This document shows, piece by piece, positions 62,425 to 64,000 of a stretch of DNA of 64,000 nt. The stretch comes from Actinopolyspora mortivallis DSM 44261 (GTDB lineage: Bacteria > Actinomycetota > Actinomycetes > Mycobacteriales > Pseudonocardiaceae), in the NCBI RefSeq assembly GCF_000384035.1, contig NZ_KB913024.1:1707087-1771086 (forward strand), given 5' to 3'. The translations under genes and the position numbers were made by a program. The notes below the pieces were generated by a model, which was not told the DNA's origin, searched no databases, and saw nothing but the letters and a program-made list of their open reading frames with translations. Numbering within the stretch: position 1 is the stretch's first letter; every line of letters begins with the position of its first letter.

Positions 62425-62575
62425 GTCCGTCCTCCGTCGTGAAGGGGAGTTCGGGTCCGGCACGCACCGCAACTCACCCGATCGGAGGAGGTCAACAGCC
62501 CTGCGCCGTGTCCATCAGCGATCTACGCTGTCGCCAATGGACTCCCTCAACAACTGTGCGGGGTAGGAGGTGGAC

Positions 62576-64000
62576 ATGGCTGCGATACCGGACCGTGCCC
62601 GCCCCGCTCGGCAACCTGCACGATCGTTCGAGGTGGTGCTGCCCGGTCAGCTCCCCGAGACGGGTGACGTGTTGGCACTGGCCCAGTCAGAGAACTTCAC
62701 GGTCGCCGCTCGGGTGTTGCCGTACCGGATCAGACAGCATCTGATGGCCGTCTACGGATTCGCCCGCCTCGTCGACTACGCGGGAGACGAAGCCTGCGGC
62801 CCCAGGGAGAGGCTGCTCGATCTGCTGGAATCCGATCTGGCCCGCGTCTACGACGGAACCCCGCGTATTCCGTTGATGAGGGCTTTCGCGCCCACCGTGC
62901 ACGAGTGCGGGATTCCACGCGAGGTTCCGGCGCGGTTGATCATCGCCAACCGGCGGGACCAGCACGTCCGTCGCTACGAGACGTTCGGGGACCTGCTGGA
63001 CTACTGCGCCTACGCGGCCAATCCGGTGGGAGAGCTCGTGCTCCACGTCTTCGGCCGGGCCGATCCCGAGCTGACCGTGCTCTCCGACCGGATCTGTTCG
63101 GCGCTGCAGATACTCGAACACTCCCAGGACGTGGCTGAGGACTATCGCAGGGGCCGGATCTACCTCCCCTCCGAGGACCTGCGGGACTTCGGGTGCGACG
63201 AATCCGAGTTCGCCGGCAGCACCGCCTCCAACGAATTACGCGCCCTCGTCTGGTTCGAGGTGGACCGGGCCGTGTCGATGCTGCGTGCCGGGCAGCCGCT
63301 GGTGGCCCGGCTGTCCGGCCTGTCGCGGCTGGCGGTGGCGGGATACGTCGCGGGTGGGCTGGCCACGGCCCGCGCCTTCCGACCGGCCGGTTACGACCCG
63401 CTGGCGGTCGGTGTCCGACCGCGCCGCGCACGGATACTCGGCGAGTGGGTCCGGCTCTCCCTGGCCCCGGCACGGGGGAGGGACGACCGGACGCGACGGG
63501 CCTACGAGTACTGCGAACGGATCACCCGGCAGCAGGCCCGCAACTTCTCCTACGGGATCAGGCTGCTTCCCCCGACCAAGCGCCGAGCCCTGTCCGCCGT
63601 GTACGCCTTCGCGCGTCTGGTGGACGACATCGGGGACGGAACAGCCTCCACCGAGGACAAACTGGTGAGACTGCAACGGGCCAGGGACTCGTTGCGCAAC
63701 GTCCACCAGGACGCCAAGGACCCGGTGCTGGTGGCGTTGGCCGACGCTCGGCGGAGACTGCCCGTTCCCCTGGAGGCCTTCCACGAACTCATCGACGGCT
63801 GTGAGGCCGACGTCCGGGGGAACAGTTACGAGACCTTCGAGGAACTCGTGCACTACTGCCGATGCGTGGCCGGCTCCATCGGGCGACTGTCCCTGGGGGT
63901 GTTCGGCCAGCGGGTCACCGGAGTGGCCGCGGAACGCGCCGACGCCCTCGGAGTGGCGTTGCAACTGACGAACATCCTGCGTGACCTGTTGGAGGACCGC
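62576..64000 (+). CDS. Fused HpnC-HpnD squalene/hydroxysqualene synthase, partial at window end
   Basis: One frame stays open from ATG 62576 (AGGAGG upstream) to the last base, 475 codons. Residues about 30-295 read as HpnC (hydroxysqualene synthase), with aspartate motifs Asp67/Asp71 (VDYAGDEA) and Asp185/Asp189 (QDVAEDYRRGRIYLP). Residues from about 303 read as HpnD (presqualene diphosphate synthase): YEYCERITRQQARNFSYGI, Asp350/Asp351/Asp354 (VDDIGDG) and Asp470/Asp474 (RDLLEDR). No ATG, GTG or TTG codon occurs in frame between 63338 and 63598, so HpnD cannot start separately in this frame. In other organisms the two are separate genes. Together they would convert two farnesyl diphosphates to hydroxysqualene. 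The C-terminus lies outside the window. Confidence 0.88.
   Translation, partial: MAAIPDRARPARQPARSFEVVLPGQLPETGDVLALAQSENFTVAARVLPYRIRQHLMAVYGFARLVDYAGDEACGPRERLLDLLESDLARVYDGTPRIPLMRAFAPTVHECGIPREVPARLIIANRRDQHVRRYETFGDLLDYCAYAANPVGELVLHVFGRADPELTVLSDRICSALQILEHSQDVAEDYRRGRIYLPSEDLRDFGCDESEFAGSTASNELRALVWFEVDRAVSMLRAGQPLVARLSGLSRLAVAGYVAGGLATARAFRPAGYDPLAVGVRPRRARILGEWVRLSLAPARGRDDRTRRAYEYCERITRQQARNFSYGIRLLPPTKRRALSAVYAFARLVDDIGDGTASTEDKLVRLQRARDSLRNVHQDAKDPVLVALADARRRLPVPLEAFHELIDGCEADVRGNSYETFEELVHYCRCVAGSIGRLSLGVFGQRVTGVAAERADALGVALQLTNILRDLLEDR

Follow-up and report, generated by a model that had tools for sequence, protein, structure and literature searches.

The hpnCD gene lies at the right-hand edge of the window, by which we mean the whole 64,000-nucleotide stretch of the Actinopolyspora mortivallis DSM 44261 genome (G000) that was analysed, contained within a single contig of 4,233,350 bases. 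A preliminary description of this DNA had read the frame as free of stops from ATG 62576 to position 64000, and it is indeed open to the window end, where the 3' part of the gene is cut off (Table 1). It had also proposed extending the sequence past 64000, which places the end of the gene 342 bases on, with hpnE and shc downstream. In the contig sequence beyond the window, the full gene (L003:4663-6429) encodes 588 amino acids and ends with a TGA at L003:6427-6429, the last base of which would be window position 64342.

Table 1. Features of the fused hpnCD gene in window coordinates.
Feature	Position	Strand	Basis
Fused hpnCD gene, truncated at its 3' end by the window edge	62576..64000	+	Open frame; NCBIfam HpnC and HpnD above cut-off
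AGGAGG, ribosome-binding-site-like, 5 bases upstream of ATG 62576	62565..62570	+	Sequence
HpnC domain, residues 36-288	62681..63439	+	TIGR03464 best stretch; 4hd1 sequence match
HpnC first aspartate motif VDYAGDE	62771..62791	+	Translation
HpnC second aspartate motif QDVAED	63125..63142	+	Translation
Junction between HpnC and HpnD model matches	63440..63523	+	Model boundaries; start-codon scan
HpnD domain, residue 317 onward, truncated by the window edge	63524..64000	+	TIGR03465 best stretch, to residue 583 in full gene
HpnD first aspartate motif VDDIGD	63620..63637	+	Translation
HpnD second aspartate motif RDLLED	63980..63997	+	Translation

Both domains, C then D, are encoded in one uninterrupted frame. 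The 588-residue protein passes the suggested profile search with 431.7 bits against the NCBIfam HpnC model TIGR03464 (curated equivalog cut-off 250.45) and 415.6 bits against the HpnD model TIGR03465 (cut-off 278.6), and even the 475-residue piece that fits in the window is over both cut-offs, with 380.8 and 310.1 bits. The earlier reading of HpnC and HpnD as one fused protein is borne out by these scores, and its four motifs (VDYAGDEA, QDVAED, VDDIGDG, and RDLLEDR) are located in the translation. TIGR03464 and TIGR03465 each list two stretches on the protein because the HpnC and HpnD halves are homologous, and the Pfam family SQS_PSY (PF00494) likewise matches it in two stretches. The suggestion that both halves might belong to a single known family is correct only at the superfamily level (SQS_PSY), and fails at the level of curated equivalogs, where one half is HpnC and the other HpnD.

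On the same strand after hpnCD, the gene order is hpnE, a polyprenyl synthase, shc, an hpnG-like gene, and hpnH. NCBIfam assigns HpnE (TIGR03467, 379.1 bits), squalene-hopene cyclase (TIGR01507, 746.2 bits), and HpnH (520.8 bits) above their cut-offs, while the HpnG-like gene, at 92.7 bits, is under its cut-off of 187.1. The hpnCD stop and the hpnE start overlap as ATGA, and with hpnE and the cyclase gene adjoining it hpnCD belongs to a hopanoid/squalene gene run. The prenyl synthase (L003:7782-8792, beyond the window) has as its best NCBIfam match NF041169, "family 2 encapsulin cargo polyprenyl transferase", with 427.1 bits, slightly under the cut-off of 450. Upstream of hpnCD, the window carries frames with mechanosensitive-channel helices (PF05552, 60712-61575) and a PRC-barrel (PF05239, 61603-62424), neither of them hopanoid genes. 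Further along the contig, an 868-residue frame on the minus strand (L003:14996-17602, beyond the window) matches both MGDG-synthase-type glycosyltransferases (PF06925, PF04101) and wax ester synthase/diacylglycerol acyltransferases (PF03007, PF06974); judged by these domain matches, it may be another fusion of two lipid enzymes in the neighbourhood of the hopanoid genes. A second squalene/phytoene-synthase-type gene is found about 20 kb downstream, again beyond the window (L092; G000:C1:1791785-1792597, minus strand), and is perhaps a carotenoid phytoene synthase.

The region between the two model matches was scanned for start codons from which a separate HpnD could be translated. In the window's genome there is no in-frame ATG, GTG, or TTG between GTG 63335 and GTG 63599 (offsets of -150 and +114 from 63485), in agreement with the earlier statement that such codons are absent from 63338 to 63598, so a separate HpnD is unlikely there. 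A fused gene from another family of the order (G398, discussed below) also lacks an in-frame start close to its HpnD half. The remaining 11 of the 13 fused rows examined (9 from Actinopolyspora, one from G014, a member of another genus of the same family, and one from Halopolyspora algeriensis) have in-frame starts within a stretch that reaches from 90 bases upstream to 30 bases downstream of the codon with which the HpnD match begins. Most of these rows have no ribosome-binding-like word at their junction starts, by a loose test for which any 4 bases out of a single 10-base word suffice. Four rows (L008, L011, L012, and L041) have one start with such a word of 4 to 5 bases, and some separate HpnD may be made there.

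The fused frame is well conserved in the genus. A single stop-free match over query residues 1-475 was found in 11 of 61 genomes, namely all 10 Actinopolyspora genomes (the window's own included) and G014, and the frame is open to the HpnD stop at all 11 of these loci as well as in Halopolyspora algeriensis (L041). Wider searches used an E cut-off of 1e-70 and scored three candidates per genome, with matching genomes that had no locus judged by their match rows. At the order level, 67 of 397 genomes matched and 9 had a stop-free spanning match, 8 of them from the window's genus (its own included) and the ninth G398; at the phylum level, 18 of 396 genomes matched, and the only stop-free spanning match was in the window's own genome. 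Across the 10 Actinopolyspora rows the junction stays in frame, with a single whole-codon gap. Substitutions in both domains fall mostly at third codon positions in these rows (0.114, 0.069, and 0.371 at positions 1, 2, and 3 in HpnC; 0.156, 0.100, and 0.354 in HpnD), and residues 286-306 change faster than either domain at positions 1 and 2 (0.282 and 0.152). Comparison of these sequences confirms that the HpnC-HpnD fusion is real and common to relatives in the genus Actinopolyspora.

Fused genes make up 13 of 79 distinct loci with both halves, the other 66 being unfused. The 79 rows derive from 113 loci, from which 25 were dropped as repeat copies of the same place, 6 were skipped for want of a usable adjacent pair (L002, L004, L032, L086, L092, and L110), 2 more were lost because a match to one half was missing, and L103 was taken out as a duplicate record of L040; G088 is counted nowhere in these rows, having been dropped as L087 and skipped as L110. 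Three loci with near-full matches were considered as fusions and rejected: in G126 (L050) one in-frame TGA makes two genes, in L039 an in-frame stop separates the genes, and in L040 the halves are in different frames. We also rejected VDYAGDE, which stands in place of VDD..GDE in the first HpnC motif, as a mark of fusion. The same letters are present in 8 of 9 unfused rows of the sister group described below, so they are not a result of fusion, and they are absent from 2 of the 13 fused rows, which have VDYVGDE (L041) and VDDVGDE (L113).

The unfused loci point to how the fusion could have arisen. The start of hpnD was taken as the first usable one, meaning the first in-frame ATG, GTG, or TTG when scanning begins 8 bases short of the end of the hpnC stop codon; some rows also have earlier starts. 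In 61 of the 66 unfused pairs it falls 3 or 6 nucleotides before the end of that stop with a frame offset of 2. Two separate, often overlapping genes had been described as the usual arrangement, and that description fits these pairs. A ribosome-binding-like word of at least 4 bases precedes the hpnD start in 58 of the 66 by the same loose test, and overlapping hpnC and hpnD in these relatives are probably translationally coupled. On a quick joint tree, 9 unfused rows from the same family are sister to a clade of 12 fused rows, with SH-aLRT values of 100 for the joined group and 95 for the fused clade. Since the overlaps are in another frame, the fusion appears to have replaced a coupled overlap, and since the frames of hpnC and hpnD differ, simple loss of the stop would not fuse them and an indel in the junction would be needed. 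The ancestor would then have been a gene pair with the hpnD start overlapping the hpnC stop in another frame, and a frame-changing indel in the junction would have joined the two.

A second fusion, probably independent, occurs outside this family. G398 (L113), from another family of the same order, has a 598-residue fused frame that exceeds both the HpnC and HpnD cut-offs, and downstream of it are frames with hpnE, prenyl synthase, shc, and hpnH. On the quick joint tree it stands apart from the Actinopolyspora clade, so that the fused state needs two changes, and a single origin of all 13 fused rows is disfavoured by an AU test on this tree (p = 0.0155). Taken by half, the same test of one fused clade gives p = 0.129 for HpnC alone and 0.0933 for HpnD alone; L113 sits on a long branch (0.6), and support for the grouping of the 12 other fused rows reaches 94 on HpnC but only 21 on HpnD. 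A genus-mate of G398 (G051) gave only a weak match (2.6e-19) in the 61-genome search, with no spanning match. Tree placement makes two fusion origins within the order likely. The broader proposition, that the HpnC-HpnD fusion arose at least twice in one actinobacterial order besides the reports of it in Acidobacteria and an alphaproteobacterium, is one that we put forward tentatively and think somewhat more apt to be wrong than right. If it is true, the recurrence of the fusion would suggest that tethering these two steps brings a genuine selective benefit, for example by shielding presqualene diphosphate during its transfer.

HpnC is said, from work by Pan et al. in 2015, to consume presqualene diphosphate and yield hydroxysqualene. 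HpnD, HpnC, and HpnE form a three-enzyme route to squalene in which HpnD makes presqualene diphosphate, and squalene synthase (SQS) and CrtM also go through this intermediate (PMC7839719). The NCBIfam name of HpnE is hydroxysqualene dehydroxylase, while HpnC is still labelled "squalene synthase". The searched aspartate motifs are present in both halves of all 13 fused rows, so the protein is most likely bifunctional, and we are highly confident in predicting a bifunctional HpnC-HpnD enzyme whose gene opens an operon-like series of hopanoid genes, hpnCD-hpnE-prenyl synthase-shc-hpnG-like-hpnH. In this enzyme the C-terminal HpnD half would join two farnesyl diphosphates into presqualene diphosphate, which the N-terminal HpnC half would convert to hydroxysqualene; a separate HpnE would then reduce hydroxysqualene to squalene for the cyclase Shc. 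What the fusion mainly brings is probably that the two enzymes are kept near each other and at a constant 1:1 ratio.

Three other accounts of the locus were weighed against this prediction. The overlap of 61 of the 66 unfused pairs in different frames means that one lost or gained base, if the stop also disappeared, could make a single genome look fused, and the preliminary description had named a missed base at 63430-63500 as what would undo its reading. Such a base is very unlikely given how the frame is equally open in 10 of 10 genomes of the genus, in G014, and in Halopolyspora; the window's genome moreover has no start codon at the junction, and we give next to no chance to an explanation by which the assembly or the sequencing wrongly merged two overlapping genes. 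Fused paralogues can lose one active site, which speaks in general terms for a single long chain with one working half and the other a structural or regulatory relic. The retention of the searched motifs in both halves of every fused row speaks against such a relic, as do the equivalog-level scores of both halves and the lack of any separate HpnD above the cut-off in the genome, the only other match to the HpnD model being L092 with 191.6 bits against a cut-off of 278.6. A relic half is therefore very improbable.

Channelling had been raised as a possibility in the preliminary description. A true substrate channel, through which presqualene diphosphate would pass from HpnD to HpnC without release, is compatible with the bifunctional enzyme that we prefer, and the production of this intermediate by HpnD (PMC7839719) on the same chain as HpnC, kept across the genus, is in its favour. 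The linker is variable, however, and the two enzymes are separate proteins in 66 of the 79 rows examined. An AlphaFold2 model of the A. biskrensis fused protein has good local confidence (mean pLDDT of 85.1) but a pTM of 0.52, the sole measure by which domain placement was judged in this single model; the prediction does not define the relative placement of the halves and provides no support for a rigid channel from one active site to the other. We consider channelling in this strict sense unlikely.

Whether such fusions had been reported, a question raised with the initial reading, is answered by a 2017 paper (PMC5462960) that describes hpnCD fusions in subdivision-2 Acidobacteria and, from BLAST searches, also in Actinopolyspora (named in its section 13), Blastococcus saxobsidens, and Rhodospirillum centenum. 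The fusion has thus been known in the genus since 2017, and as a discovery the present gene goes little beyond that report. The sections of PMC5462960 on this gene do not say how, or by what mechanism, the actinobacterial fusion originated, and excerpts from PMC13274349 and PMC8886135, in the PMC open-licence literature, report no HpnC-HpnD fusion. What is added here is the count of conservation, the overlap in unfused relatives, and the finding that the junction in the window's genome has no internal start. A second actinobacterial origin is a likely further addition; it may or may not be the same as the Blastococcus fusion of PMC5462960, and, as a guess, G398 may belong to the family of Blastococcus. 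The locus is a natural case of two successive isoprenoid enzymes on one chain, derived from genes that overlap in relatives, and the fused and unfused sister lineages are ready pairs for studying the effect of tethering on flux or on leakage of presqualene diphosphate.

The fused HpnCD of PMC5462960 likewise combines hpnC and hpnD in a gene of roughly twice the size, with Actinopolyspora a named carrier, and a comparison by description, made without the acidobacterial or alphaproteobacterial sequences, found nothing that sets the window's gene apart. Separate HpnC and HpnD (TIGR03464, TIGR03465) share with it the order C then D and a score over the cut-off for each half, but they are encoded by two genes, usually overlapping, whereas here one stop-free frame runs through both without a restart codon. 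The best solved sequence match, on the HpnC half (query residues 34-277), is the HpnC of Alicyclobacillus acidocaldarius (PDB 4hd1), which also ranks first when the whole A. biskrensis model is searched with Foldseek, ahead of CrtM-like structures; that HpnC is a stand-alone protein, unlike the fused form here. Solved sequence matches of the HpnD half comprise CrtM, a phytoene synthase entry, and dehydrosqualene synthases, and both SQS and CrtM are sequence matches of this half and fold matches of the whole model. In SQS and CrtM a single domain carries out both steps, whereas the fused HpnCD contains two homologous domains, each with its own set of motifs.
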